From positions 1-11,597 of the forward strand of contig JADGBP010000035.1 in NCBI GenBank assembly GCA_015231395.1: a stretch of 11,597 nt of DNA, written 5' to 3'. Below are positions 1 to 11,597 of this stretch, piece by piece. The notes under the pieces are model-generated. The model did no database searches. It was given only the letters and a program-made list of their open reading frames with translations, and was not told the DNA's origin. Position numbers and translations under genes: made by a program. The DNA comes from Desulfamplus sp. (GTDB taxonomy: Bacteria > Desulfobacterota > Desulfobacteria > Desulfobacterales > Desulfobacteraceae). Numbering within the stretch: the first letter of the stretch is position 1; the number at the start of each line of letters is the position of its first letter.

Positions 1-306
1 AGTACAAGGGGATTTCATTTGGCAACGGTTGCCCAGAAACTTGGTAAAAACGTGACTATCTTTTTACTTGATGAAGCTGTATATCTTGCCAGAAAAGGGG
101 CAATGGAAAATATTAAAGCTGCCACAGGAGATATCGCAGATGATTTGCTTGCTCATCTGCAGGCACATGAGGTTCCAATGCTTGTCTGCACCCCATGTGC
201 AAAAGCAAGATTTATTAAAGAAGAAGATCTGGCAGATGGCTTCAGGCTTGCCCTTGCCAGTGAACTGATTGAACTCTCCTGCAAGTCAGCAGTAATAAGT
301 CTTTAA
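1..306 (+). CDS. DsrE-family sulfur-relay protein, 5' end cut by the window
   Basis: This is the C-terminal part of a DsrE/DsrF-like protein, a small family of cytoplasmic proteins that carry persulfide sulfur on cysteines. The frame is open from base 1, and the residues before the TTG at 19 (STRGFH) continue the family-like segment HLATVAQKLGKNVTIFLLDEA. The TTG is therefore probably not the start, and the true start lies upstream of the window. About 101 codons are visible. Counting from the TTG, the motif CTPCAKAR places cysteines at 57 and 60, in the region where DsrE-like proteins carry their conserved cysteine. The gene ends 12 bp before the disulfide reductase gene, so the two are likely co-transcribed and may act in one sulfur-transfer pathway. 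Family assignment is fairly secure. The sulfur donor and acceptor are not visible. Confidence 0.85.
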   Translation, partial: STRGFHLATVAQKLGKNVTIFLLDEAVYLARKGAMENIKAATGDIADDLLAHLQAHEVPMLVCTPCAKARFIKEEDLADGFRLALASELIELSCKSAVISL

Positions 307-309
307 AGT

Positions 310-314
310 GAGGA
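310..314 (+). promoter_or_regulatory. Shine-Dalgarno site for the disulfide reductase gene
   Basis: GAGGA lies 4 nt before the ATG at 319, inside the 12-bp gap after the DsrE gene. It fixes the start of the downstream gene and supports a two-gene transcript. Confidence 0.7.
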
Positions 315-318
315 CAAA

Positions 319-2328
319 ATGGTAAAAAAAGTAGTTATTGTAGGTGCTGTAGCCCTTGGACCAAAAGTAGCATGCCGTTTAAGGCGACTTGATCCAGATG
401 TTGAGATTACCGTAATTGATAAAGATTCTCTTATATCCTACGGTGGATGTGGAATTCCCTATTATGTTGGTGGCGATGTGGCAGAACTTGAAGGGCTTTA
501 TTCCACTATTGCTCATGCAAAAAGAGATGCCTCTTTTTTCAGGAATATCAAGGGATTTAATGTCCTGACACGTACCGAGGCAATTGAGATTAAACGCTCT
601 GAAAAAAAAGTTGTGGTGCGTTACTTAGATGAAGAGACGGAAGGAGAAAGCAGGGGAGAGAAAAGCGGGGAAGAAACAAACAGAAAAGGAAAAAACAGGG
701 AAGGAGAACTTGAATATGATAAGCTGGTTATAGCCACTGGTGCTACTCCCATACGTCCCCCTTTTCCCGGGTCTGATCTTCCAAAGGTTCATGTGGTCTC
801 AAATCTTCATCATGCCAGTGCTATAAAAACAGCCATATCCAATGGAGCGGTTGAACGTGCTGTGGTAATTGGAGCAGGAGCCATTGGTATTGAGATGGCA
901 GAGGCTCTTACTGATCTTTGGGGAATTGAAACCACAGTTGTTGAAATGGCAGATCAGGTTTTGCCACAGGCACTTGGCAAAGATATGGCAAGGATTGTAG
1001 AAAAAAAGCTTCAGGACAGAGGTGTTAAGCTCCTGTTATCCCAAAAAGTTATACGGATAAATGGAGATACTGAAAATGGCGTTGACTCTGTTGAAATCGT
1101 TGGTCAAGCCGACATAACTGACCTAACTCAGAAAACTGCTATAACTGATAAAATTGAGAAAATTAATATAACTGAGAAAACTGAGAAAACTGAGATAACT
1201 GAGATAACTGAGAAAATTACTCTTCCATGTGATATGGTGATTTTAGCTGCCGGTGTGCGTCCCAACTCTGAACTTGCCGTAGCAGCAGGGCTTGCAGTTG
1301 GAAGAAACAGAGGCATTCTGGTAAACAGGTGCATGCAGACCACAGATCCTGATATATACGCTGGCGGAGATTGTGCAGAGTTTACCAATTTAGTCAGCGG
1401 ACTGGATTGTGTTATGCCGTTAGGCTCTCTTGCCAACCGTCAGGGGCGTATTATTGCAACCAATATCAATGGAGGCAATGATCAGTTTCCCGGAAGTGTG
1501 GGAACTTTTTGCATCAAGATTTTTGATATGGGCGTTGCCAAGGCTGGATTGACTTTTGCTCAGGCAAAGGCTGCGGGTTTTGATCCTGTTCAGGCTGTGG
1601 TAGCACAATCAGATCGAGCACATTTTTTTCCTGATGCTGAGTTTATGTTCATGAAGTTAATTGCAGACAGAAAAACCCGAACAGTTCTTGGAGTGGAAGC
1701 GGCAGGTCCTCAAGGCGATGCTGTAAAAGCCAGAGTGGATGCTGTGGCACCTCTTTTGAAATTCGGAGTTGATGTAAGTGAAATCTGCAATCTTGAGGTG
1801 AGCTATTCGCCGCCTTATGCTTCAGCAATGGATGTTGTTAACAATGCTGGAAACGCACTGGACAATACATTGAACGGAAATCTTAAATCCGTTGATACCT
1901 TTGAGTTTATAGAGTTGCTGAAAAAGGGGGGTATCACGGTTCTGGATGTCAGAAGCTCTGTACAGGCTGCTCCTTTTATTGGAAAGTATCCTGAACAGTG
2001 GATAAATATTCCACAAGATGAACTCAGGAGACGATGGGAAGAAATCCTCGAACACGTCCCTGTAAAAATGGCAGCAGATTTATCATCAGATTCATCATCA
2101 GAATCAGAATCAGGTTCAAATTTAAACTTACGGTCAAATTCAGATTTATCATTAGATTTATCAACAAATTCAAATTTACCATCAAACAAACCATTATATA
2201 TTATTTGTGGGACAGGTCCTCGCTCTTATGAAACACAGGTATTCCTTAATAGCAAAGGCATCACCAATACCAGAAATGTTCAGGGTGGATATGCAATGGT
2301 GCTTGCCATTCATTCTTCTTTGGTTTAG
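319..2328 (+). CDS. FAD-dependent CoA-disulfide reductase-like enzyme with C-terminal rhodanese domain
   Basis: A 669-residue pyridine nucleotide-disulfide oxidoreductase of the CoA-disulfide/NADH:persulfide reductase type, which uses NAD(P)H and FAD to reduce disulfides, persulfides or polysulfide through a single redox cysteine. Visible parts are the N-terminal FAD fold (VVIVGAVALGPKVACR, residues 5-20), the active-site motif YGGCGIPYYVGG with Cys44, an NAD-binding GAGAIG (185-190), an FAD-contact motif YAGGDCAE (347-354), a dimerisation domain to about 510, and a rhodanese domain from about 525. The rhodanese active loop is CGTGPRS with Cys630. The first glycine motif is unusual: family members usually have GGVAGG where this has GAVALG. 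Three low-complexity segments interrupt it (about 105-130, 265-299, 587-623); the last lies inside the rhodanese domain before its active loop. The upstream DsrE gene suggests the rhodanese and DsrE exchange persulfide sulfur. The natural substrate is not determinable from sequence. Confidence 0.9.
   Translation: MVKKVVIVGAVALGPKVACRLRRLDPDVEITVIDKDSLISYGGCGIPYYVGGDVAELEGLYSTIAHAKRDASFFRNIKGFNVLTRTEAIEIKRSEKKVVVRYLDEETEGESRGEKSGEETNRKGKNREGELEYDKLVIATGATPIRPPFPGSDLPKVHVVSNLHHASAIKTAISNGAVERAVVIGAGAIGIEMAEALTDLWGIETTVVEMADQVLPQALGKDMARIVEKKLQDRGVKLLLSQKVIRINGDTENGVDSVEIVGQADITDLTQKTAITDKIEKINITEKTEKTEITEITEKITLPCDMVILAAGVRPNSELAVAAGLAVGRNRGILVNRCMQTTDPDIYAGGDCAEFTNLVSGLDCVMPLGSLANRQGRIIATNINGGNDQFPGSVGTFCIKIFDMGVAKAGLTFAQAKAAGFDPVQAVVAQSDRAHFFPDAEFMFMKLIADRKTRTVLGVEAAGPQGDAVKARVDAVAPLLKFGVDVSEICNLEVSYSPPYASAMDVVNNAGNALDNTLNGNLKSVDTFEFIELLKKGGITVLDVRSSVQAAPFIGKYPEQWINIPQDELRRRWEEILEHVPVKMAADLSSDSSSESESGSNLNLRSNSDLSLDLSTNSNLPSNKPLYIICGTGPRSYETQVFLNSKGITNTRNVQGGYAMVLAIHSSLV
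631..708 (+). repeat. In-frame low-complexity insert 1 in the disulfide reductase
   Basis: Codons for about residues 105-130 are very rich in E, G, K, R, N and S, built on purine-rich GAAGGAGAA-like and GGGGAAGAA-like words. The segment sits in the antiparallel strand region of the FAD domain, between VVVRYLDEE and LEYDKLVIATGA, where relatives have a short turn. The unit is not cleanly periodic, so it is a degenerate or old expansion. Confidence 0.55.
1111..1215 (+). repeat. In-frame 9-bp repeat insert 2 in the disulfide reductase
   Basis: This stretch is built from 9-bp units such as ACTGAGAAA and ACTGAGATA, encoding repeated (I/K)TE tripeptides at residues about 265-299. It lies in the NAD-binding domain between a VEIVG strand and the LPCDMVILAAGVRPN segment, a turn in related enzymes. 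The 9-bp unit keeps the frame. Confidence 0.75.
2077..2187 (+). repeat. In-frame 6-bp-type repeat insert 3 in the rhodanese domain
   Basis: Hexamer-like words (TCAGAA, TCAAAT, TCATCA and variants) encode an S/D/E/N/L-rich stretch at residues about 587-623. It separates the first half of the rhodanese domain from PLYIICGTGPRS, which holds the active cysteine. Confidence 0.7.
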
Positions 2329-2395
2329 AGAAGAAATAAGATTTGCTATCGACAAAAAGAGGGGGCTATCTAATACAAAAAGAGGCGATTTAATA

Positions 2396-3028
2396 ATGGC
2401 AAAGGAATGGATTTTAAACAGCGTTTTAAACCGTTTTCAATTGAATTTTAAAAGAAATGTTGGTGCTGTTTCGGAAGAAATCAGAAAGTGCTCACCTAAA
2501 AAACTTGATGATTGGGAAGAATACTATTTCAAGAATGTGCGTAATAGAGATCATATAGTCGAACTTGGAAAAAAATTATACATTAAAATAACAGAAGTGG
2601 TTTATGCAGAAATTGAAGAAATAACCGAAGAAGACTGTATAAATTATATGACGCAACTTGTTATCAGTAGAACTTATGACGGTTACACAACAGAAATTAC
2701 AACTATTTATGGACAACTCTCAAATCTTCTTGATGTTAAAATTGAACCATCACCAGATAAGTGGGATAGACTATACAATGTCGATTTTTTTATAAAAGTA
2801 AATGAAAAATATATTGGATTACAAATAAAACCTGTTTCAAGCATTAATAGCATACCTCAAATATTTAAAGAAAAAGAGATACAGAAAAATACCCACATTA
2901 AATTTACCGATGAATTTGGAGGTAATGTTTTTTATATTTTCTCCATTAAGGACGGGAAGAATAAAAAAATATATAATACTGAAATAATAGATGAAATAAG
3001 AAAAGAAATTGTTCGGTTGTCAAGATGA
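2396..3028 (+). CDS. MjaI-family type II restriction endonuclease
   Basis: A 210-residue protein strongly resembling the MjaI restriction endonuclease family, whose founding member cuts at CTAG. The N-terminal stretch NRFQLNFKRNVGAVSEEIRK (12-31) and the IKITEVVYAEIEEITEEDC region are family-like. A plausible PD-(D/E)XK-type core is VDFFIK with Asp130, followed by LQIK with Gln143 and Lys145. I chose the ATG at 2396: it has an AGAGG 10 nt upstream and leaves the conserved N-terminus intact. The frame is open further upstream into the reductase gene, but that part reads as another frame of that gene. The 3' end overlaps the methyltransferase start by 4 bp (ATGA), the usual tight pairing in a restriction-modification operon. 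The pair looks more AT-rich than the flanking enzyme genes, which fits horizontal acquisition. Confidence 0.88.
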   Translation: MAKEWILNSVLNRFQLNFKRNVGAVSEEIRKCSPKKLDDWEEYYFKNVRNRDHIVELGKKLYIKITEVVYAEIEEITEEDCINYMTQLVISRTYDGYTTEITTIYGQLSNLLDVKIEPSPDKWDRLYNVDFFIKVNEKYIGLQIKPVSSINSIPQIFKEKEIQKNTHIKFTDEFGGNVFYIFSIKDGKNKKIYNTEIIDEIRKEIVRLSR

Positions 3029-4146
3029 AAACTAAACATCAATTCTTATTTCAGGATAGTCGTTGTTTGTCAGATATCAAATCAGATACAATAGACCTTA
3101 CCGTTACATCTCCACCTTATCCTATGATAGAAATGTGGGATAATTTATTCATAGAGCAAAACAGTCAAATTTCAGATGAACTTAATAAAGATGATGGAAA
3201 AAGTGCATTTGAATTAATGCATAAAGAGTTGGATAAGGTTTGGCAAGAAGTTCTAAGAGTAACAAAATCAGGTGGCTGGGTAGCAATAAACATTGGTGAT
3301 GCTACACGTAAAATTGGAAATTATTTTCAACTATATTCAAATCACACGAGGATTACTTCCAAATTTATAACAATGGGTTTTGATGTCCTTCCACTTATTT
3401 TATGGAAAAAAACAACTAACGCGCCTAACAAATTTATGGGTTCAGGAATGCTTCCATCAGGAGCTTATGTTACACTGGAGCATGAATACATTTTGCTTTT
3501 CAGAAAAGGTCATCGAAGAGAATTTAAAACAGCAGAGGAAAAATACAACAGAAATGTAAGTGCATTTTTTTGGGAAGAAAGAAACAGATGGTTTTCTGAC
3601 AATTGGGATTTAAAGGGTGTTTATCAGAATTTATTTAATTGTAAAACCAGAGAAAGAAGTGCAGCCTTTCCTTTTGAGCTACCCTATCGAATTATTAATA
3701 TGTATTCAGTAAAAGGTGATATTGTTCTTGATCCATTTGTTGGAACAGGAACTACCTCATTGGCATCTGCTATTTTACAAAGAAATTCGATAGGATTAGA
3801 AATTGACAGTAATTTTAAGGATATTATTTTTTCCAAATTTAATGAGATTCCAAATAAAAGTTATGAATTGGCAAAGTCAAGAATTGATAACCATTTGTCA
3901 TTTATCAAAGAGTATATTGGTAAAAAAGGGGGAACTAAGCATAATAATAATAACTATAATTTCCCAGTGGTAACGAAACAGGAAAAAAATCTTTTAATAT
4001 CATATATAAATAACATTGAGTTTAATTCGAACAGTTTTTTAACCAGCCATTGCGAATATAATTTAAAAGCTGAGAATTTAAAAACTGAAAATGAATTTGT
4101 TTTCTTTAATGAGCAGAAACAACCACAACAAATATCTCTTTTTTGA
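3025..4146 (+). CDS. Type II DNA methyltransferase, beta-class, probably N4-cytosine (CTAG)
   Basis: A 373-residue S-adenosylmethionine-dependent DNA methyltransferase, partner of the upstream endonuclease. The catalytic motif IV TSPPY is near the N-terminus (28-32) and the SAM-binding motif DPFVGTGTT is at 236-244. This IV-before-I order defines the beta class, and TSPPY is typical of N4-cytosine enzymes. The segment after motif IV (PMIEMWDNLF) resembles methyltransferases of CTAG systems such as M.MjaI and M.MthZI, so methylation of the cytosine in CTAG is the best guess. Residues about 300-373 form a polar, Asn/Lys-rich tail beyond the catalytic core with no recognised motif, starting with a run of four Asn codons. 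The start overlaps the endonuclease stop, so translation is probably coupled, with the endonuclease gene first. Confidence 0.9.
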   Translation: MKTKHQFLFQDSRCLSDIKSDTIDLTVTSPPYPMIEMWDNLFIEQNSQISDELNKDDGKSAFELMHKELDKVWQEVLRVTKSGGWVAINIGDATRKIGNYFQLYSNHTRITSKFITMGFDVLPLILWKKTTNAPNKFMGSGMLPSGAYVTLEHEYILLFRKGHRREFKTAEEKYNRNVSAFFWEERNRWFSDNWDLKGVYQNLFNCKTRERSAAFPFELPYRIINMYSVKGDIVLDPFVGTGTTSLASAILQRNSIGLEIDSNFKDIIFSKFNEIPNKSYELAKSRIDNHLSFIKEYIGKKGGTKHNNNNYNFPVVTKQEKNLLISYINNIEFNSNSFLTSHCEYNLKAENLKTENEFVFFNEQKQPQQISLF

Positions 4147-4261
4147 ATATTGTGCCCTATACATACAAACAATATGGTAATAAAAAAACAGACTTTGACG
4201 GGTTACTATTTGGATATGGTCAATAAAAATAGTTAATGTCATATATTCTGGAGCAAATTAA

Positions 4262-4792
4262 ATGTTCTTTTCTTTGATTGAAAAACGCAGAAGTATCAGA
4301 AAATTTAAAGCACTGCCCGTGGAAAAGGAGAAGATTGAAAAAATTATTGACGCGGCTTTAAGATCTCCCTCTTCAAGAGGTTTTAATCCATGGTGTTTTA
4401 TTGTGATTGATCAGCCTGAACTTCTTCAAAAATTAGCTATGGCAAAGCCTCACGGTGCAAATTTCTTGAAAGACGCACCTCTTGGCATTGTTGTTTGTGC
4501 TGATGAAAACAGAACAGATGTCTGGATTGAGGACACATCTATTGCCACGATTTTTATTCAACTTGCTGCTGAAGCTCTTGAACTTGGGAGTTGCTGGATA
4601 CAGATTCGTAACAGGCAACATGATGAACTTATTTCCGCAGAGTCATATATACGGGGAGTTCTTGCAATTCCAGATAACTTTAAAGTTGAATCTATGATTG
4701 CACTGGGCTATCCTGATGAGCATAAAAAAGCTCATTCAAAAGAGTCTCTTGAAATGGAAAAAGTTTTTTTTAACGGTTTCGGGAAAAAATAA
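4262..4792 (+). CDS. Nitroreductase-family FMN oxidoreductase
   Basis: A 176-residue protein of the NAD(P)H-dependent nitroreductase family, which binds FMN and reduces nitro compounds, quinones or flavins in the cytoplasm. The N-terminal RRSIRKF (9-15) matches the family's FMN-phosphate-binding RRSxR motif. It is followed by a SPSSRGFNPW segment near the flavin, an AAEALELGSCWIQ helix and a C-terminal GYPDEHKKAH. The length is typical for the short, dimer-forming subfamily. The ATG follows TGGAGCAAATTAA, a usable ribosome binding site. It is separated from the methyltransferase by about 115 bp, so it may have its own promoter, though I could not identify a convincing one. Its stop codon is the first edge of a 20-bp tandem array. 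The physiological substrate cannot be told. Confidence 0.88.
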   Translation: MFFSLIEKRRSIRKFKALPVEKEKIEKIIDAALRSPSSRGFNPWCFIVIDQPELLQKLAMAKPHGANFLKDAPLGIVVCADENRTDVWIEDTSIATIFIQLAAEALELGSCWIQIRNRQHDELISAESYIRGVLAIPDNFKVESMIALGYPDEHKKAHSKESLEMEKVFFNGFGKK

Positions 4793-4889
4793 GATAGCGT
4801 TTATAATATTAAGATAACGTTTGTCATATTAAGATAACGTTTGTCATATTAAGATGGCGTTTGTTGTATTAAGATGGCGTTTGTTATCA
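4791..4889 (+). repeat. 20-bp tandem repeat, about 4.9 copies
   Basis: Units begin at 4791, 4811, 4831, 4851 and 4871. The consensus is AAGATAACGTTTGTCATATT, with AAGATGGCGTTTGTTGTATT in later copies. Units two and three are identical and the others differ at a few bases. The first two bases lie inside the nitroreductase TAA stop, so the array starts right at the gene end. The unit length is not a multiple of three, as expected for non-coding DNA. No clear hairpin is visible within a unit. Confidence 0.9.
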
Positions 4890-4927
4890 AAATAAAAATC
4901 AAACCAATTTCTCGAATAATGGCTTGA

Positions 4928-5023
4928 ATAACACAAAAAAGGTATTTTACACTGGAACTTAAGCAAAAAATAATACATCTTATTCAACGCAATGACACAG
5001 AGCTGCCAAGCCTTCCGGTTATT
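4928..5023 (+). other. Open in-frame extension encoding the missing HDOD N-terminus
   Basis: In frame with the downstream HDOD gene, the codons from 4928 to 5023 are open and include KQKIIHLIQRNDTELPSLPVI. The LPSLPxI part is what HDOD domains usually start with, so this stretch looks translated. There is no ATG, GTG or TTG in it. A CTG at 4952 has AAAAGG 9 nt upstream and is the best non-standard start; it would give a 288-residue protein. The in-frame ATG at 4919 is followed by GCT and then TGA at 4925-4927. Confidence 0.55.
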
Positions 5024-5818
5024 GTGAGTAAAATTCTGGATATTGCTTCAGATGAGAGCACCACATTAGATGAGCTTGCAGAAACTATAAGTTATGATCA
5101 AGGAATGACCAACAAACTACTCCGGCTCTCCAATTCAATCTATTACGGGCAGGTACACCAGGTTGATAGCGTGAAAAGAGCTATTGCGGTTATAGGCGTT
5201 GATGAAATAGTCGGTATAGCTCTTGGGATGAATGTACTTTCTTCCCTGACAGGTAAAGAGTCTGGGCTAAGTCTTGATATGAAGGCTTTGTGGATTCATT
5301 GCATTGGTTGTGCTACTGCTGCAAAGGAGATTGCCGCAAGAATCAATCCTGAAATTTCAGGAAAAATTTTTATTCCCGGGCTTTTGCATGATATGGGAAA
5401 GGTGATTCTTGCAGTTTATTTCAAGAATGAATATCGTGAAGTGCGTGCAATTGCCATGGAGCAGCAGCAACCCTTGTTCCGTGTTGAAAGAGCAATGTTT
5501 GACCTGGATCATGCTGTTTTATCGGGTCTTTTAATGAAACGGTGGCAATTTCCTGATCACATACTTTATCCAAGCAGATATCATCATAATCCATCGGCCT
5601 GTCCTCCTGCATATCGAGATTATGCCATGATTATTAACCTTGCAAATTATCTGTGCCACAAGGCAAACATAGGTCATAGCGGCAATCCCATGTCAGTGGC
5701 TGTCAAAAATTCCACCCGTAAAGCAGGGATCAACGAGATTGCCCTGAAACTTATTCTTGACCAACTTCGTCTTAAACAGGAAGAGATAAAAATATTTTTT
5801 GACATTACAACCGATTAG
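5024..5818 (+). CDS. HDOD-domain signalling protein (start uncertain)
   Basis: An HDOD-domain protein, a degenerate relative of HD phosphohydrolases found in bacterial signalling and regulatory proteins. The first usual start is the GTG at 5024 (264 residues), used for these coordinates, but it has no good ribosome binding site and cuts the normal HDOD beginning, which is encoded just upstream. From the GTG, recognisable parts are LDELAETISYDQGMTNKLLR (15-34), SNSIYYG (36-42), VKRAIAVIG (50-58), and GLLHDMGKVIL (119-129) retaining His122 and Asp123, then the RYHHNPSACPP region. HDOD proteins often sense or relay signals through partners; no output domain is attached here. A second HDOD gene lies about 0.9 kb downstream with a methyltransferase gene between them. 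The family call is firm; the true 5' end is not. Confidence 0.85.
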   Translation: MSKILDIASDESTTLDELAETISYDQGMTNKLLRLSNSIYYGQVHQVDSVKRAIAVIGVDEIVGIALGMNVLSSLTGKESGLSLDMKALWIHCIGCATAAKEIAARINPEISGKIFIPGLLHDMGKVILAVYFKNEYREVRAIAMEQQQPLFRVERAMFDLDHAVLSGLLMKRWQFPDHILYPSRYHHNPSACPPAYRDYAMIINLANYLCHKANIGHSGNPMSVAVKNSTRKAGINEIALKLILDQLRLKQEEIKIFFDITTD

Positions 5819-5837
5819 TCATCATGATAACTAATTG

Positions 5838-5863
5838 TCGTAAAAACTTATCGTAAAAACATA
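5838..5863 (+). repeat. 13-bp direct repeat, two copies
   Basis: TCGTAAAAACTTA is followed directly by TCGTAAAAACATA, one mismatch, in the gap after the first HDOD gene. Another example of short tandem duplication in this region. Confidence 0.7.
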
Positions 5864-5905
5864 TTAAGAGCAAACAAAGGCAAACGCTCAACGCCGGCAC
5901 CCCTA

Positions 5906-5920
5906 AACTCAACGTTAGAT
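5906..5920 (+). other. attC-like half-site (possible integron cassette boundary)
   Basis: AACTCAACGTTAGAT resembles the 3' end of integron attC sites, which end in a GTTRRRY core; here the core is GTTAGAT at 5914-5920. It lies 17 bp before the start of the methyltransferase gene, where a cassette would begin. I do not find a matching complementary left core upstream, nor an attC site after the methyltransferase gene, so it may be a remnant or a coincidence. Confidence 0.25.
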
Positions 5921-5937
5921 TTAAGAAAGAAGTAACT

Positions 5938-6561
5938 ATGAACCAATTTAATATATTTGAAGGCATATTAGTCTGCATTCTATTTATAGGATATATTTTG
6001 CTTTGGCGTATTAAGCAAAAATTACAGCAAGCTAAAACAGGGATTGATCCTGAAGTCGTCTATAAGGATCCACGTCCAACCCAACGATATTTTGCTATTT
6101 TAATGCGGGTTATGACAATTTTAGTCATCATTTTGATATTATTGCATACTTTAGGAGTAGATAACGTTCCTGGGTTTTATAAGATCCAAATCTTAGATCA
6201 TCTTTTAGGAGATATTTTTGGCGTTATTACTGGATTTTTAGGTTTAACATTGTGCTTTATCGCTCAAAAAACAATGGGACATTCATGGAGAGTTGGTATT
6301 GATGAAAAAAATAAGACAGACCTAATAACCACTGGAATTTACAAAATAATTAGAAATCCTACTTATAGTGGACTATTTCTTGTCTGTATTGGGGTCTGGC
6401 TAATTTTTCCGACTATGTTTTTTTTAACGTGGGGTTTACTGTTTTTTATAATGATAGAGTTTCAGGTAAGATGTGAAGAAGAGTACCTAATGGAGACACA
6501 CCAAGAAAATTATAAAGATTATTGTTCATATACAAAAAGATATATACCGTATCTGTATTAA
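5938..6561 (+). CDS. Membrane methyltransferase, isoprenylcysteine carboxyl methyltransferase/phospholipid methyltransferase-like
   Basis: A 207-residue integral membrane protein of the ICMT/PEMT superfamily, whose members transfer a methyl group from S-adenosylmethionine to lipid-like or small hydrophobic substrates in the membrane. Hydrophobic segments lie at about 5-24, 52-75, 88-110 and 143-175. The C-terminal catalytic region has GHSWRVG (114-120), TGIYKIIRNPTYSG (132-145) and RCEEEYL (178-184), the usual SAM-binding signature of the family. The bacterial substrate is unknown; true prenylated proteins are unlikely. AAGAAAG lies a few bases before the ATG and could serve for ribosome binding. 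The gene sits between two HDOD genes and is preceded by an attC-like half-site, so it may be a later insertion. Confidence 0.85.
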   Translation: MNQFNIFEGILVCILFIGYILLWRIKQKLQQAKTGIDPEVVYKDPRPTQRYFAILMRVMTILVIILILLHTLGVDNVPGFYKIQILDHLLGDIFGVITGFLGLTLCFIAQKTMGHSWRVGIDEKNKTDLITTGIYKIIRNPTYSGLFLVCIGVWLIFPTMFFLTWGLLFFIMIEFQVRCEEEYLMETHQENYKDYCSYTKRYIPYLY

Positions 6562-6668
6562 TTGTTTTAACCAAACTATGATTCAACAAATACTCCGTAG
6601 ATTGTTTATAAGACTGACTCCTGACACACTTAAAATAAAACCAGGAAATCATTGTAGAGAAGGTGCTT

Positions 6669-6710
6669 ATGTGCTCAAAATTTCGTTTTTCTTTGGCAAG
6701 AGAATCATAA
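6669..6710 (+). CDS. Possible 13-residue leader peptide before the second HDOD gene
   Basis: ATG at 6669 opens a 13-codon frame (MCSKFRFSLARES) ending in TAA at 6708-6710, with a good GAGAAGG 5 nt upstream. A short inverted repeat (AAGAGA/TCTCTT) begins within its last codons. This could be a leader ORF or chance; no regulatory residue pattern stands out. Confidence 0.15.
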   Translation: MCSKFRFSLARES

Positions 6711-6718
6711 AAATCTCT
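6697..6718 (+). terminator. Weak inverted repeat between methyltransferase and HDOD genes
   Basis: AAGAGA and TCTCTT form a 6-bp stem with a 10-nt AT-rich loop, followed by TGGC and not by a T-run. It might be a weak terminator or leader hairpin for the next gene; support is thin. The rest of 6562-6755 shows nothing I recognise. Confidence 0.2.
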
Positions 6719-6755
6719 TTGGCTTTGGCTCTTTCATGTTAAGGATAAAGACGAA

Positions 6756-7799
6756 ATGTCCTATAAAAAAATAATGGCAAATATTATTGCTCAGGAAATT
6801 CTTGATTCCGGAATCAAGATCCCCTCTTTACCTGCTTCCGCCCCTCGTCTTTTGGCTATGGCTCAACAGTCAGTTGAGCAAATTGAAATCAATGTACTTG
6901 AGGATCTTATTAAAAGCGATCCCATCCTTTGTGTCCAGATTCTTAAACTGGCAAACTCACCCTATTATAATTCAGGTATGGAAATCACGGGGCTACGTAA
7001 AGCGATAATGAATATAGGTCTTACTGAGACCATACACTCTCTTTATATGTATATATTTAAATCCATATTACCGCCGTTTCCTAATCTAAATGGATTTTCC
7101 GACAAGGAATACTGGGAAGAAGCCTTGGCCTGTGCAGTTGCAAACAGAAGGCTTGGGGATCCGGGACTTCTGGTGAAAGCATTGCCAGGAGAACTTTATA
7201 TTGCCGGTCTGCTTCAGGGAATCGGGAAATTGATTCTTTCTGTTTATGATCCGAAGGCTTTTGAAAAATGCATTAATATCAGCAGAAACACTGGTCAGAC
7301 GTTTGGAGATGTTGAACTTGAAATATTTGGAACTACTGATGATCTTATAGCATATAAAATTTTAGAGTCATGGCATCTTCCTTCCATGATATGTGCGGCT
7401 GTGGGATATTGGCAAGCTCCTGAATCAGCAGCGTCTGAATATCGGGAAATTGCCGGCTTGACTCAGTTTGCCTGTTCTGTTGTAAGAATATCCGGGCTTG
7501 TAGGTACCTGTGAATGGATAGGTTATTCATCAACAGACTCCTTTATTGCGGATCTTTCAAATATCTATATTTTTAAAAACAGCTCTTCTCCTCTTGCCGG
7601 TACTGGAAAACAGTATCAACTTGTTCAGGAAATTGTTTCAATACTGGAAAAAAAATTTACTGCAAGTCAAGAGTCAAAAGAAAAAAAAATGCCTCAGAAA
7701 ACTGAATTCAAAAATCTGGTTAGGCATGATGTAGTAAACGATGCCTCTGGTTTTCCTGCAAAGAAGGATTTTTTTAACTGGATACGATCATTTTTCTGA
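6756..7799 (+). CDS. HDOD-domain signalling protein lacking the HD pair
   Basis: A 347-residue HDOD-domain protein. The domain spans about residues 20-250: IPSLPASAPRLL (22-33), VLEDLIKSDPILCVQILKLA (47-66), NSPYYNSG (67-74), LRKAIMNIGL (80-89) and GLLQGIGKLIL (151-161). In the last motif the family's usual HD is replaced by Gln154-Gly155, so this copy cannot bind metal there, consistent with HDOD domains acting as binding scaffolds. The C-terminal 100 residues are polar, contain no known output domain, and end in a Lys-rich then aromatic tail. AAGGA 10 nt before the ATG supports the start. It is a divergent relative of the HDOD gene at 5024. Its stop lies inside the 3' end of the convergent reductase gene. 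Confidence 0.9.
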   Translation: MSYKKIMANIIAQEILDSGIKIPSLPASAPRLLAMAQQSVEQIEINVLEDLIKSDPILCVQILKLANSPYYNSGMEITGLRKAIMNIGLTETIHSLYMYIFKSILPPFPNLNGFSDKEYWEEALACAVANRRLGDPGLLVKALPGELYIAGLLQGIGKLILSVYDPKAFEKCINISRNTGQTFGDVELEIFGTTDDLIAYKILESWHLPSMICAAVGYWQAPESAASEYREIAGLTQFACSVVRISGLVGTCEWIGYSSTDSFIADLSNIYIFKNSSSPLAGTGKQYQLVQEIVSILEKKFTASQESKEKKMPQKTEFKNLVRHDVVNDASGFPAKKDFFNWIRSFF

Positions 7800-9026
7800 C
7801 ACCAACCACTCTTTGAGCCTTACAAGACCTTCCTGTGTTGATATTAGTGGCTTGTATCCCAAATCTTGCTTTGCTCGTGAAATGTCAAACCAGTGTGAGG
7901 TGGAGAGCTCCTTTGCCATGAATCGTGTCATGGGCGGCTCTTTTTTGATTTTAAACATGCTGAATATGGTTTCTATAGCTGTTCCGGCTATTTGTGCACT
8001 TCTTGCGGAGACTCTCCCTTTAATCGGCGGTAAACCCGCTGCATCAAGCATATTATCTACCATTTCCCACAAAAATACCGGATCATCTTGACTGATGAAA
8101 TAAATCCTGCCTGAAATAGAATCTTTATTTGCCATGGAATCTTTTGAAATGGAATTTTCATTTGCCATGAGCTCTTTTGAAATGGAATTTTTATTTGCCA
8201 TGAGCTCTTTTGAAATGGAATTTTTATTTGAAATGGACTCTTTTAAAAAAGATTCTTTATTTGAAATGAGATCTTTTGAAAGAGAATCTTTTTTTAAAAC
8301 CGATGTTTCTATTTCTTCTTTTAACTTGTCACCGGCAAGCAGATGAGCATGTGCTGCATTGTCAATATAGATTGTGTCAACCTTATTTTTCCCGTCTCCA
8401 ATCCTTTTGAGTCGCTTGGCTCTGGCAATAATACCGGGAAGAAGGTGGTTATCTCCAGGACCCCAGATGAGATGTGGTCTCAGAATAATGGTTTTTAATC
8501 CTGCAAATTTTGCATTACCCATTGATGTTGTGTTGTCTCTTGATGCTGTGTTGTCTTTTGATGTTGCTTTGAGTACGATTTTTTCTGCCATGGCTTTGGT
8601 TTCAGGGTAGGGGGCATGGTAAAAGGCAGGGTAGGGGACAGACTCATCAACTCCTTCCATGTCACTGCCGTCAAACACAACACTTGGTGAACTTGTATGC
8701 ACAAGGCGGCTGATCCCATTTTTTAAACACGCATTCACAACATTTTCTGTTCCAATTACATTTGGTTCAAAGTAATCTTTCCATCTTCCTGATACGCCCG
8801 CTTTGGCAGCCACATGAAATACCATATCCATACCACTGCAAGCCTGTTCAACAGCCTTGTAATCAGTAATATCCCCCTGGAATTGCTGAACACCCATTTG
8901 ATCAAGTTCAGGATAGAATTGTCTTGAGAAGCTGGACACATCATCACCACGCTGGACAAGTTTATTAACAATGGCTTTGCCAAGAAAACCGCCGCCGCCT
9001 GTGACCAGAATTTTTTCTTTTTTCAT
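7788..9026 (-). CDS. NAD(P)-dependent epimerase/dehydratase-family reductase, OleD/3-beta-HSD-like
   Basis: A 412-residue extended short-chain dehydrogenase. The N-terminal TGGGGFLG (9-16) binds NAD(P). The catalytic set is SSPSVVF (112-118) and YPETK with Tyr140 and Lys144. AAKAGVSG (73-80), LRPHLIWGPGD (182-192), and the C-terminal YFISQDDPVFLWE and STSHWFDISRAKQDLGY resemble OleD, the reductase acting on 2-alkyl-3-oxoalkanoates in long-chain olefin synthesis, more than sugar epimerases. No oleA, oleB or oleC is in the window, so the pathway is not proven. AGAGGA 6 nt before the ATG supports the start. Two in-frame repeat inserts interrupt it (154-172 and about 236-306). It follows the UbiB-like gene on the same strand with a 116-bp gap and probably shares its transcript. 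Confidence 0.85.
   Translation of the reverse strand: MKKEKILVTGGGGFLGKAIVNKLVQRGDDVSSFSRQFYPELDQMGVQQFQGDITDYKAVEQACSGMDMVFHVAAKAGVSGRWKDYFEPNVIGTENVVNACLKNGISRLVHTSSPSVVFDGSDMEGVDESVPYPAFYHAPYPETKAMAEKIVLKATSKDNTASRDNTTSMGNAKFAGLKTIILRPHLIWGPGDNHLLPGIIARAKRLKRIGDGKNKVDTIYIDNAAHAHLLAGDKLKEEIETSVLKKDSLSKDLISNKESFLKESISNKNSISKELMANKNSISKELMANENSISKDSMANKDSISGRIYFISQDDPVFLWEMVDNMLDAAGLPPIKGRVSARSAQIAGTAIETIFSMFKIKKEPPMTRFMAKELSTSHWFDISRAKQDLGYKPLISTQEGLVRLKEWLVSEK
8112..8294 (-). repeat. 33-bp in-frame tandem repeat in the OleD-like gene
   Basis: About 5.5 units of 33 bp encode an 11-residue repeat of the form NKNSISKELMA at residues 245-305. The central units (267-277, 278-288) are identical in protein and the outer ones have drifted (KESFLKESIS, ENSISKDSMA). 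It sits between DNAAHAHLLAGD and GRIYFISQDDP, a loop of a few residues in relatives. Confidence 0.92.
8511..8564 (-). repeat. 18-bp in-frame tandem repeat in the OleD-like gene
   Basis: Three 18-bp units encode TSKDNT, ASRDNT and TSMGNA at residues 155-172, just after the helix carrying the catalytic YxxxK and before GLKTIILRPHLIWGPG. Related enzymes have a short loop at this place. Confidence 0.8.
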
Positions 9027-9032
9027 CGATTG

Positions 9033-9038
9033 TCCTCT
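9033..9038 (-). promoter_or_regulatory. Shine-Dalgarno site for the OleD-like gene
   Basis: AGAGGA on the minus strand, 6 nt before the ATG at 9026. It fixes the start and indicates independent translation initiation after the upstream kinase gene. Confidence 0.7.
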
Positions 9039-9050
9039 TTACGGTAAACG

Positions 9051-9080
9051 AGCATGATTGCGTATCAATAATATCATGCT
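9051..9080 (-). promoter_or_regulatory. Perfect 8-bp inverted repeat between the kinase and reductase genes
   Basis: AGCATGAT at 9051-9058 pairs with ATCATGCT at 9073-9080 around a 14-nt loop. It lies in the 116-bp gap between the two minus-strand genes. There is no T-run after it on the minus strand, so an operator or mRNA-processing hairpin is as likely as a terminator. On the plus strand it is followed by ATAAAAAAC, not a terminator tail. Confidence 0.4.
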
Positions 9081-9142
9081 ATAAAAAACAGATTGGTTTT
9101 CATGGTAGGTGGTGTCAGAAAATCTGCAATGAAGGTTTATTT

Positions 9143-11110
9143 TCAAGATTGTTTGAATATTGATATAATGAGCATGAATCCAATAAAACCGGCACAAATT
9201 AACCCTCCAATACCAAGGAATGAAAGTCCTAATAACATTGGTGGAACGCTAAAAGATAGCAGCAGTGAAGATGCAAGAATCAATGCAGCGATGATAATGG
9301 AAAGGGCAATTTTGTTGTTTGCCTGATGGTGTGTAGAAAGAATTTTTTCAAGCCGTTGAACATCAAAACCAATAGTAAGTTTTCCCTTGCGTAATTGGCG
9401 TATGATTGCAAGGGATTCCCTTGGAATGTTTTGCAGTAGCTTTATTGATTCAACAGAGACGCGACTCATATCATCAGATAGTCTTGCAGGTGAAAATCTT
9501 GCCGCTTTTGCTTTTTTTATGTATGGGGCAGCATGGCTCATCATATCAAATCCAGGATATATCATATGGGCAACCCCTTCTACTGCGGTAAACGCCTTGA
9601 GCATGAGAAAGGTTTCAGGATAAAGCCTCAGTCTGTGGTTCAGGGCAATCTGAACAATATCCTGAAGCATTTTTCCCATATTGATATCTTTGAGTGCCGT
9701 ACCTGTAAAATAGTGACCTGTGAATCCCGAAATATCTTTTTCCAAAGCCCTTAAATTTGGTTCTTCATCATACTCGGTAAGTTCAAGAAGAAGGCGGCTT
9801 ACCTGTGGAATGTTCTGCATAACAGTATTCGCGATGATATCAATAAAGGCTTCTCTGGAGTATTGATCCACAAACCCCATAATACCAAAGTCCACAGGGC
9901 AAATAACATTGTCTGGCAGGACAAAAATATTGCCGGGATGCAGGTCTCCATGAAAAAAACCATGTTCCAGTACTTGAGTCAGGATAAAATCTGCACCTCT
10001 TTTTGTAAGAAGCTTCCTGTCATAACCTTTTGCATCAAGGGTCTCCACTTCGGATATTTTGATGCCGTCCACATATTCCATTGTGAGTATGGAACAGGTG
10101 GTATGATCCATATAGACTTTTGGGATATAAATGCCGGAATCAAAAATAAACTGTCTTGCCACCCGCACCATGCTTGATGCTTCAAGAGTATAGTCAAGTT
10201 CTTTTTCAAGGGTTGAAGCAAATTCCTGAACAATTCTCACAGGTTTAAAGAATGAGAGATCTTCAATGTGGTCTTCCATCAGGGTTGCAAGATGAAGAAG
10301 TATCTCCAGATCAACGGCAATGAGCTTCTTTATGCCTGGGCGTTGAATTTTAACAGCAACCTTCTCTCCTGTTTTTAAAATTGCCCGATGAACCTGACCA
10401 ATCGAAGCAGATGCAAATGGAGACTCCTCAATCGACTCAAATGGTGTTGCTTTATATGCAAGTGATTTAAACTGGTTTTGCGAAGATTGATTTTGTGAAG
10501 ATTGATTTTGTGAAGATTGATTTTGTGAAGATTGACTTTGTGAAGATTGATTTTGCGAAGATTGATTTTGTGAAGATTGATTTTGCGAAGATTGATTTTG
10601 TGAAGATTGATTTTGTGAAGATTGATTTTGTGAAGATTGACTTTGTGAAGATTGACTTTGTGAAGATTGACTTTGTGAAGATTGACTTTGTGAAGATTGA
10701 CTTTGCGAAGAATAGAAAAAAACAGAATTTGATTTAAATTCTGATTCAATAATGGATTTGACTTCTGCGAAGCTGAAAGGAGGTACATTGTCCTGGAGTT
10801 TCTCCAGTTCATGAATAAAGGGCAGAGGAATAAGGTCAGGTCTTGTGGAGAGAATCTGTCCAAACTTGATAAATGTGGGACCAAGCTCCTCAAATATGAG
10901 TCTGACCCTCTCCTGAGGAGTGAGCTTTTCAACCCGATCCCGTTTTTTTCTTGATATCATCTGAAGACCGACCTCAAGGTAGTGGTCGATCTTCAGGACA
11001 TCAATAATATTGTCAAATCCATATTTAAACAGAATAGTAAGTATTTGACGATATCGGTTTACATGTCGATAGGTTCTTCCAATAATTCCGATACTTCTGA
11101 GATTCAGCAT
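9143..11110 (-). CDS. UbiB/ABC1 (ADCK)-family atypical protein kinase-like protein
   Basis: A 655-residue member of the UbiB/ABC1/ADCK family, membrane-associated atypical kinases or ATPases linked to isoprenoid quinone synthesis and lipid homeostasis. The family KxGQ motif is IKFGQILSTRPDLIP (81-95). The nucleotide-site segments are FASASIGQVH (232-241, the A-rich loop), VAVK with Lys254, ELDYTLEA (303-310), HGDLHPGN (387-394) with Asp389, and the DFG equivalent VDFGIMG (406-412). Two hydrophobic segments at about 602-620 and 626-652 form the usual C-terminal membrane anchor. Residues 134-213 are a 16-unit pentapeptide repeat inserted between the KxGQ region and the A-rich loop; without it the length would be normal for the family. 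The ATG at 11110 is preceded almost at once by an in-frame TAA, so the start cannot be further upstream, but no good ribosome binding site is visible. Confidence 0.92.
   Translation of the reverse strand: MLNLRSIGIIGRTYRHVNRYRQILTILFKYGFDNIIDVLKIDHYLEVGLQMISRKKRDRVEKLTPQERVRLIFEELGPTFIKFGQILSTRPDLIPLPFIHELEKLQDNVPPFSFAEVKSIIESEFKSNSVFFYSSQSQSSQSQSSQSQSSQSQSSQSQSSQNQSSQNQSSQNQSSQNQSSQNQSSQNQSSQSQSSQNQSSQNQSSQNQSSQNQFKSLAYKATPFESIEESPFASASIGQVHRAILKTGEKVAVKIQRPGIKKLIAVDLEILLHLATLMEDHIEDLSFFKPVRIVQEFASTLEKELDYTLEASSMVRVARQFIFDSGIYIPKVYMDHTTCSILTMEYVDGIKISEVETLDAKGYDRKLLTKRGADFILTQVLEHGFFHGDLHPGNIFVLPDNVICPVDFGIMGFVDQYSREAFIDIIANTVMQNIPQVSRLLLELTEYDEEPNLRALEKDISGFTGHYFTGTALKDINMGKMLQDIVQIALNHRLRLYPETFLMLKAFTAVEGVAHMIYPGFDMMSHAAPYIKKAKAARFSPARLSDDMSRVSVESIKLLQNIPRESLAIIRQLRKGKLTIGFDVQRLEKILSTHHQANNKIALSIIIAALILASSLLLSFSVPPMLLGLSFLGIGGLICAGFIGFMLIISIFKQS
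10472..10711 (-). repeat. 15-bp in-frame tandem repeat, 16 units, in the UbiB-like gene
   Basis: Sixteen uninterrupted 15-bp units encode SSQSQ (5 units), SSQNQ (6), SSQSQ (1) and SSQNQ (4) at residues 134-213. Differences between units are nearly all one codon change (Ser/Asn) plus a TCG/TCA-type third-base change. The nearly clean array suggests recent expansion. On the other strand the same DNA is an open frame of KIDFV repeats, which is a by-product. Confidence 0.97.
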
Positions 11111-11352
11111 GATTTAAGCAGACTATCATTGTCATTATCGTCGTTGATATTACTGTAACCGCCGCTGTTAATAATGCTTTTGCTGTCGTCGTTGATATTG
11201 TCGTCAATATCGCTACCGATGTTGATGTTACTTTCACTATCGTTGTTGATAATGCTGTCGTTGTTGATATTGTCGTCAATATCGCTACCGATGTTGATGT
11301 TACTTTCACTATCGCTGTTGATAATGCTGTCGTTGTTGATATTGTAATGCAA
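11104..11352 (-). CDS. Possible repeat-encoded small ORF overlapping the kinase start
   Basis: An 82-codon frame from a TTG at 11352, rich in N, D, S and I (SIINSDSESNINIGSDIDDN repeated). Its TGA overlaps the UbiB-like ATG (ATGCTGA), an arrangement compatible with coupled translation. The 72-bp unit is a multiple of three and the composition resembles the inserts in the neighbouring genes. There is no ATG, no ribosome binding site and no known family, and a second frame is also open here, so it may be non-coding. Confidence 0.2.
   Translation of the reverse strand: MHYNINNDSIINSDSESNINIGSDIDDNINNDSIINNDSESNINIGSDIDDNINDDSKSIINSGGYSNINDDNDNDSLLKSC
11126..11344. repeat. 72-bp tandem repeat upstream of the UbiB-like gene
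   Basis: The marker GTTGATATTG recurs at 11191, 11263 and 11335, exactly 72 bp apart. Copies one and two are nearly identical, and a degenerate copy with small indels precedes them from about 11126. Each unit is itself made of GTTGATATT/GTTGATGTT/GTTGATAAT-type words, so it grew from a shorter repeat. It occupies the position where the promoter of the UbiB-like gene would be expected. Confidence 0.88.
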
Positions 11353-11518
11353 AACATTATGATGTTGAGAGATAAAGTTATGATATTATAATGAAAAACA
11401 TTATGATGTTGAAAGATAAAGTTATGATATTATAATGAAAAACATTATGATGTTGAGAGATAAAGTTATGATATTGTAATGAAAAACATTGTAATGTTGA
11501 GAGATAACATTATGATAT
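11345..11518. repeat. 44-bp tandem repeat, about 4 copies
   Basis: The word CATTATGATG (CATTGTAATG in the last copy) begins at 11355, 11399, 11443 and 11487, an exact 44-bp spacing. Units also carry GAGAGATAAAGTTATGATAT. AT-rich and non-coding, with no frame open through it. The remaining bases to 11597 show nothing I recognise. Confidence 0.92.
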
Positions 11519-11597
11519 GAGAAAGCGGTTCAAATGGATAAAAGCAGTGGTATTTGAGTGGTGTTTCAACCAAATTTAACCCTATTTTTATCCTAAT

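Follow-up and report, generated by a model that had tools for sequence, protein, structure and literature searches.

How do three unrelated, conserved enzymes encoded in one short stretch of bacterial DNA each come to be interrupted by in-frame, polar, low-complexity repeats? The question is raised by the first 11,597 nucleotides (positions 1 to 11,597, forward strand) of contig JADGBP010000035.1 in the Desulfamplus sp. assembly GCA_015231395.1, a stretch that we call the window; it is contig C288 of our genome G000, an assembly of 2.81 Mb in 548 contigs that is 52% complete. The source bacterium is uncultured and is a relative of a magnetic sulfate reducer. A disulfide reductase, an OleD-like reductase and a UbiB-like kinase encoded in the window carry six such inserts. 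We conclude that these are very probably intragenic minisatellites, arising from a lineage-specific, genome-wide tendency to duplicate stretches of ~12-100 bp in tandem, filtered for reading frame and for tolerance as protein loops, and then left to drift. The host genes and their inserts are as follows.

319..2328, plus strand: CoA-disulfide-reductase-like flavoprotein with a C-terminal rhodanese domain, 669 residues (Pfam Pyr_redox_2, Pyr_redox_dim and Rhodanese, over cut-off)
631..696, plus strand: disulfide-reductase insert 1, residues 105-126 (weak repeat at 639-705, 15 bp x 4.5, 69% match)
1102..1215, plus strand: disulfide-reductase insert 2, residues 262-299 (array 1114-1216, 27 bp x 3.8 at 81% match or 9 bp x 10.2 at 79%)
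2068..2193, plus strand: disulfide-reductase insert 3, residues 584-625, Ser/Asn/Leu-rich (array 2075-2118, 12 bp x 3.7, 81% match)
7788..9026, minus strand: OleD-like NAD-dependent epimerase/dehydratase (short-chain dehydrogenase/reductase), 412 residues (Pfam 3Beta_HSD and Epimerase)
8496..8570, minus strand: OleD-like insert 1 (array 8522-8566, 18 bp x 2.5, 88% match)
8109..8321, minus strand: OleD-like insert 2 (array 8112-8295, 33 bp x 5.6, 84% match)
9143..11110, minus strand: UbiB/ABC1 atypical kinase-like protein, 655 residues (Pfam ABC1 at 233.7 bits, over cut-off)
10472..10711, minus strand: UbiB insert, residues 134-213, SSQSQ/SSQNQ repeats (array 10476-10711, 15 bp x 15.7, 95% match)

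All six inserts proposed by an earlier, sequence-only reading of this DNA are present, and the main period of every in-gene array in the window is divisible by three, as that reading had claimed (arrays here and below were detected with Tandem Repeats Finder, TRF). Clear tandem repeats occur in four of the inserts; in the disulfide reductase the repeat nature of inserts 1 and 3 is weaker, and array 2075-2118 spans only part of insert 3 (2085-2113 when read with a 6-bp unit). The window proteins were aligned with the best-scoring 31 of 119 listed UbiB, 31 of 119 listed disulfide-reductase and 25 of 120 listed OleD-like homologues, and the six stretches proved to be insertions relative to most of them, at sites where relatives are short, again as proposed. 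The disulfide reductase has 669 residues against 568 in two Desulfocicer homologues (P0150 and P0151), and the segment holding its insert 1 exceeds that of 30 of the 31 aligned homologues by 20 residues and that of P0149 by 18. The UbiB-like protein is likewise longer than its Desulfocicer homologue P0070 (655 versus 560 residues); its insert site holds 116 residues, compared with 23-24 in 13 distant homologues (P0018-P0021, P0023, P0025-P0032) and 27-85 in the other 18. At 412 residues the OleD-like protein exceeds all 25 of its aligned homologues (329-382), with 41 residues versus 21-28 in the segment of insert 1, and 85 in that of insert 2 versus 22-61 in the nearest homologues and 22 in distant ones.

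Outside the inserts, C44 and C630 of the disulfide reductase are unvarying across 40 aligned sequences, and K82, Q85, K254, D389 and D407 of the UbiB-like protein across 42; we take the former to be catalytic and the latter to act in the known UbiB motifs. Each protein scored below the cut-offs of the equivalog models for its family: 347.1 bits against 578.8 for the CoA-disulfide reductase (TIGR03385), 428.7 against 487.55 for UbiB (TIGR01982), and 387.5 and 366.5 against 580 for the OleD/2-alkyl-3-oxoalkanoate reductases (NF042423 and NF042422).

In the UbiB array, the order of unit variants suggests later copying of multi-unit blocks. Another array of this genome (L003:371-550), with a 15-bp unit repeated 12 times, opens a response-regulator-like frame, in which it reads as SSQGQ/SNQGQ; the pentapeptide resembles that of the UbiB insert, and the DNA unit differs. 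Eight UbiB-like homologues (P0005, P0006, P0008, P0011-P0014 and P0016) carry ~30 extra residues at another site, with a core of 590-597 residues versus ~562. Split matches near query residue 325 suggest the place of this second site, at which the window protein has no insert.

The tendency is genome-wide, as the sequence-only reading had supposed. We sampled 80 of the 548 contigs, of which 65 were readable after 15 wholly masked ones were dropped, and found 226 arrays in 466,308 bp, or 48.5 per 100 kb and 3.7% of bases. The consecutive part of the sample (C1-C39 and C41) gave 46.8 arrays per 100 kb, and the spaced part (40 contigs, every 13th, from C40-C287 and C300-C547; 25 readable) gave 51.4; contig C144 falls on the spaced grid, although a repeat match there was already known beforehand. 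The window itself reaches 86 per 100 kb. Third-order Markov resampling, done five times, yielded 2, 6, 3, 2 and 8 arrays, so chance is excluded at the scale of the genome. Samples of 52-180 kb from relatives form a descending series: 23.4 per 100 kb in Desulfamplus magnetovallimortis (G001, 180 kb), 9.9 in sister genome G007 (142 kb) and 11.6 in sister genomes G003, G008 and G009 pooled (52 kb), against 1.8 in Desulfocicer (G010, 110 kb), 0 in G017 (100 kb) and 2.5 in G023 (120 kb), the three samples from other genera of the family. These counts include a D. magnetovallimortis stretch (L127) that had been picked for a repeat match; the remaining 160 kb gives 25.0. Loci retrieved by UbiB match (L110, L112, L123, L132, L134, L144, L149, L150 and L154, with 0, 0, 1, 1, 8, 2, 3, 5 and 0 arrays respectively) were excluded.

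The arrays reach into the coding repertoire, with essential enzymes among their hosts as well as ordinary ones. By our gene calls (made with our own hexamer-based caller, which requires an open frame), 84 of 405 genes bear an array, compared with 13 of 125 in D. magnetovallimortis, 7 of 126 in G007, 3 of 44 in G003, G008 and G009, and 0 of 93, 0 of 84 and 2 of 120 in G010, G017 and G023. Pfam scans of 20 chosen host proteins, one of which had no match, identified leucyl-tRNA synthetase (LeuRS), CarB, TrpE, a TrpC/TrpF fusion, ArgJ, LpxD, NamZ, a MacB-like protein, a PilS-like histidine kinase and a multihaem cytochrome, among others. Some arrays lie between domains (LeuRS 241-273, the kinase 304-355, TrpC 275-296) and others within them (CarB 479-512, ArgJ 128-154, TrpE 477-510). 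LeuRS, ArgJ and CarB were each searched in 21 genomes, our own included. In most relatives the flanks of the array match nearly back to back (LeuRS 1-~240 and ~283-916, ArgJ 1-~126 and 155-419, CarB 1-~478 and 533-1124) or the site is bridged with fewer residues, and the inserts are therefore missing or shorter in the relatives matched; a few relatives gave only pieces or no orthologue of one or another of the three.

Reading frame is the clearest filter on these arrays. Comparing period modulo three inside and outside genes, as the earlier reading had advised, we found periods divisible by three in 112 of 116 arrays within genes and 36 of 84 between genes (Fisher p = 1.4e-18), and in 8 of 26 across gene ends; the first of these shares tells somewhat less for a filter than it seems to, since gene calling needs an open frame and the share is partly built in. 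A count that makes no use of gene calls also finds triplet periods in 156 of all 226 arrays, and in 62 of the 81 with at least three copies. Eighteen non-triplet arrays cross gene ends and could mark frameshifted genes, but in only 4 of these cases is the array flanked on either side by genes of one strand, the arrangement that a split gene should leave. In D. magnetovallimortis the corresponding counts are 19 of 19 within genes and 7 of 21 between them (17 of 17 and 7 of 20 without L127). Phase-variable contingency repeats, in which a change of copy number would shift the frame and switch the gene, are not what we see, given this near-uniform triplet period and the in-gene arrays of the window, which keep frame.

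The second filter appears to concern what the protein can accommodate. Kyte-Doolittle hydropathy was scored for the 90 in-gene arrays that measure 46 bp or more, have a triplet period and contain no stop. The mean was -0.97 in the frame used, versus -0.24 in control segments of the same genes and +0.43 in the arrays' other open frames; the used frame was the most hydrophilic open frame in 58 of the 88 arrays that have another, compared with 564 of 1127 control segments. Residues N, T, Q and S are enriched and W, Y, R, F, M and C depleted in the tested arrays. AlphaFold2 models of the UbiB-like protein (42-row alignment) and the disulfide reductase (40-row alignment), with mean predicted local distance difference test (pLDDT) scores of 70.9 and 77.1, cover four of the six window inserts. 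The low confidence of all four, each set between conserved secondary-structure elements, would suit the suggestion that these are disordered loops, but some conserved stretches also score low. In the disulfide reductase, pLDDT falls below 50 at residues 105-124 of insert 1 (flanked by strands 97-102 and 127-132), at 264-274 and 285-294 of insert 2 (flanked by strands 254-262 and 299-303, with a low-confidence helix at 269-282) and at 585-621 of insert 3 (between helix 566-578 and strand 626-629); in the UbiB-like protein it does so at 129-218 (blocks of ~33), between helix 114-124 and strand 224-227.

Between sister species the inserts differ far more than the enzyme cores do. Against the four nearest homologues of each protein, core identity is 87-89% for UbiB and the disulfide reductase and 80% for the OleD-like protein, yet the inserts share only 2-13% and 10-18% respectively, gaps included. 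Disulfide reductases P0129 and P0131 have 95.1% core identity, yet their insert lengths are 34 and 14 residues. Insert 1 of the disulfide reductase and insert 1 of the OleD-like protein are nearly private to this genome, while length varies among Desulfamplus-labelled homologues at the UbiB site, disulfide-reductase site 2 and OleD-like site 2. Alignment with close relatives, which the sequence-only reading had named as a check, thus mostly found inserts differing in length and sequence instead of the same insert at constant length. These are differences between relatives, no second strain of the species having been found; the strain-level length polymorphism that the same reading suggested may exist. 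The same sites in sister species hold different inserts that look non-repetitive by eye, from which we infer that old arrays decay and that tolerant sites are re-used. Unit-to-unit changes in 87 arrays comprise 137 synonymous, 338 non-synonymous and 2 stop changes versus 122, 337 and 18 expected (synonymous versus non-synonymous, p = 0.25); the residues are under little constraint once an array is in place, except for the avoidance of stops.

Taken together, these observations fit a sequence of five steps. A local stretch would be duplicated in tandem, seemingly without flanking homology, as a small set of clean duplications suggests; slippage or unequal exchange would then probably add and remove units. 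Inside genes, only triplet periods would survive, as the period statistics indicate, and the survivors would sit at places able to take up a loop or linker that is hydrophilic and probably disordered, a step for which the hydrophilic bias argues statistically and the four modelled inserts argue by position. Units would finally drift with little constraint other than on stops, as the substitution counts indicate, and old arrays may decay into non-repetitive inserts while new ones arise at the same tolerant sites.

Evidence on the birth step comes from clean two-copy duplications, defined as those in which both flanks match by less than 50% at the same offset. From 24 exact duplications we dropped 3 with nearly two further copies' worth of match, and from the random expectation we dropped values above 6 nt, as the 21 observed end at 6. 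Mean junction microhomology was 0.90 nt versus 0.75 expected (P = 0.27), from which birth seems to proceed without need of flanking homology; against this stand the small number of duplications and their position, with 17 of the 24 lying between genes. Slippage between pre-existing short direct repeats was accordingly set aside as the birth step, on this same small sample. Ku-dependent end joining was rejected as the source, Ku having been found in 0 of 39 genomes searched; among 14 control genomes, Bacillus subtilis alone was positive. Genus-wide loss of MutS was rejected also, as MutS scored over cut-off in 7 of 10 Desulfamplus genomes (G001, G003, G005, G006, G007, G008 and G009), with partial pieces only in G002 and G004. 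In two of these genomes (G003:C7 and G008:C246) MutS has an apparent ~30-36 extra residues near profile position 373-383, judged from the gap between two matched pieces. As a source, misplacement at the replication fork would fit, and so would the filling-in of staggered nicks. A bolder proposal is that Desulfamplus has a distinct, homology-independent duplication activity, due either to an unusual enzyme of repair or replication or to the absence of such an enzyme. It would copy stretches of 12-100 bp in tandem at a rate unmatched in known bacteria and would have given about one gene in five of this species a disordered polar insert; this proposal we regard as possible but doubtful.

Several observations weigh against tandem duplication followed by frame and loop filtering as a full account. 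Triplet-period arrays are less dense within genes than between them (28.1 versus 53.6 per 100 kb), and this halved density implies that about half of the frame-keeping arrays are also removed or never fixed, so that frame is not the whole filter. Density is patchy: seven Desulfamplus loci around ubiB range from 0 to 41 per 100 kb, the top value being reached by two match-fetched stretches in sister species and the others lying at 0-18. Low pLDDT extends beyond the inserts, to residues 43-67 of the disulfide reductase and 1-13, 33-60 and 578-591 of the UbiB-like protein. No MutS match was obtained in G000, which is only 52% complete, and a species-level repair defect is thus possible. A 27-residue insert is stably kept, at 89-100% identity, in the UbiB proteins P0005, P0006, P0008 and P0012, so some inserts settle. 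Finally, unit changes lean slightly to codon position 3 (164/134/179 at positions 1, 2 and 3 versus 168/151/158 expected, p = 0.10), and a weak amino-acid constraint is possible.

The last two of these points belong equally to the idea that the inserts are selected, functional disordered segments serving interaction, localisation or variation. The hydrophilic frame bias favours it too, as does the recurrence of expansion at the UbiB site, disulfide-reductase insert 2 and OleD-like insert 2. We nonetheless consider selection for function unlikely: the units show no clear synonymous excess, the sequence at these sites is mostly unconserved between sister species, and hosts as diverse as biosynthetic enzymes, a tRNA synthetase, sensors and a cytochrome suggest no common role.

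Two further explanations fare much worse. Copies of a mobile or palindromic element might enter unrelated genes in frame, as in Rickettsia (PMC10969869), and 26 of the 226 arrays do resemble another (15 pairs; 16 of the 26 are intergenic). An all-against-all comparison found no similarity to any other sampled array for the remaining 200, periods and unit sequences vary from gene to gene, and Desulfamplus-labelled homologues carry other sequence at the same sites. With units mostly unrelated, no element is spreading, in agreement with the sequence-only reading, and we hold the mobile-element explanation to be highly improbable. Error in assembly or amplification has in its favour the state of the G000 bin, fragmented and half complete, and the fact that the assembly of repeats is error-prone (PMC6868369). 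Artefacts should ignore reading frame, whereas triplet periods prevail overall and depend on whether an array lies in a gene, and the independent assembly of D. magnetovallimortis has a like pattern; this possibility, named beforehand as one that could undo the finding, has very little probability left. Tandem duplication filtered by frame and loop tolerance remains the best account of the window.

The window also holds arrays between its genes, two of which (with 20- and 44-bp units) had been noted in that reading and were recovered by TRF at those periods; the third was absent from the earlier list.

4790..4884, no strand assigned: intergenic array, 20 bp x 4.8, period not divisible by three (the last codon of the preceding gene supplies its first three bases)
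11181..11345, no strand assigned: array upstream of the UbiB-like gene, 72-bp unit x 2.3
11337..11518, no strand assigned: intergenic array, 44 bp x 4.1, period not divisible by three

An open frame of 82 residues at 11104-11352 (minus strand), a putative gene, consists mostly of the 72-bp repeat (NINNDSIINSDSESNINIGSDID) and stops just past the UbiB start codon. Elsewhere in the window, the stretch 2207-4146 (plus strand), directly after the disulfide-reductase gene, encodes an MjaI-type restriction endonuclease (PF09568) and an N6/N4 DNA methylase (PF01555); the listed GTG start at 2207 overlaps the disulfide-reductase gene, and the true start may be an ATG near 2396. Two HDOD-domain proteins are encoded near each other, at 5024-5818 and 6756-7799 (plus strand). 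Among the sampled loci, the arrays L070:222-391 and L100:794-948, of which one lies between genes and the other at the end of a gene, have 64-66-bp units and are 73% alike over 161 bp; they may represent a dispersed intergenic repeat, a class apart from the in-gene arrays. Several arrays in D. magnetovallimortis have 60-91-bp units too, and Desulfamplus nS315bin44 carries a 4-bp microsatellite of 21.5 copies at 97% match (L036:21497-21581).

Compact genomes and trim enzymes are what one expects of bacteria, whereas here about one called gene in five bears an array, carbamoyl-phosphate synthase and leucyl-tRNA synthetase included. The selective filter can be read directly, as frame, then hydrophilic loop, then near-neutral drift. 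Both the seemingly homology-free birth of repeats and the tolerance of enzymes for probably disordered inserts become measurable within one genus, along a sister series of ~10-48 arrays per 100 kb with near-zero outgroups. Were a distinct duplication activity indeed at work, the genus would offer a bacterial counterpart of the low-complexity proteome of Plasmodium and a natural source of new protein segments.

The inserts of Plasmodium are mainly single-residue runs, whereas our host is a bacterium, its sampled G+C content is 39% and so not extreme in A+T, and its units measure 9 to ~100 bp. The two are alike in that polar low-complexity inserts are absent from sister-lineage orthologues or shorter there, as our alignments and the LeuRS, ArgJ and CarB searches found; PMC11260460 describes those of P. 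falciparum as long, often disordered, lineage-specific and placed in ordinary enzymes. This is a resemblance in kind, with no common descent implied. Rickettsia palindromic elements also form in-frame inserts in unrelated bacterial protein genes, but those described in PMC10969869 are related copies of ~150 bp in ten families, whereas our units are tandem and mostly unrelated; with so few arrays resembling another, the related copies at many loci that mark such elements are lacking, and the arrays do not belong among them. The 51-53-nt and 20-21-nt repeats of Bacillus are likewise species-specific tandem arrays, accompanied by a separate triplet class that codes for amino-acid repeats; in PMC8161180, however, two fixed sizes account for 66% of arrays and the 52-nt class is unable to code, whereas here periods range widely and are almost all triplet within genes. 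A link to giant-cell genomes was dropped, the tandem repeats named in PMC10580974 belonging to a Kelch-like protein. Searches of open-access literature showed us no description of such arrays in Desulfamplus, and with subscription literature outside the scope of the search the absence of such a description is unproven.

There is also a close likeness to satellite-rich prokaryotes such as Methanosarcina, Methanobrevibacter ruminantium, Chloroflexus and Burkholderia, in which, according to Subirana and Messeguer (2019, PMC6749651), many arrays are scattered and triplet periods are common in coding DNA. These authors credit M. ruminantium with a large potential for growing unrelated satellites genome-wide. 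By size they count as satellites arrays with 4 or more units of 10-200 nt, which takes in 10476-10711, 8112-8295, 4790-4884 and 11337-11518 of the window; 639-705 has 4.5 copies at only 69% match, and 8522-8566 (2.5 copies), 11181-11345 (2.3), 2075-2118 (3.7) and 1114-1216 (3.8 copies of 27 bp, or a 9-bp unit) fall outside it. By that measure the genome holds 81 arrays per Mb, and D. magnetovallimortis 33, compared with a maximum of 23 in bacterial chromosomes, an archaeal maximum of 89 in Methanosarcina vacuolata and group medians of 0-3 in their survey, a comparison that is approximate, our counts coming from TRF and not from their program. The coding satellites that they describe in Methanosarcina are mainly in surface-layer proteins, whereas here arrays occur in conserved enzymes of many kinds. 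A minisatellite-rich prokaryote is thus a known kind; this one is extreme for a bacterium by the one comparable table, and unusual in loading its conserved enzymes.

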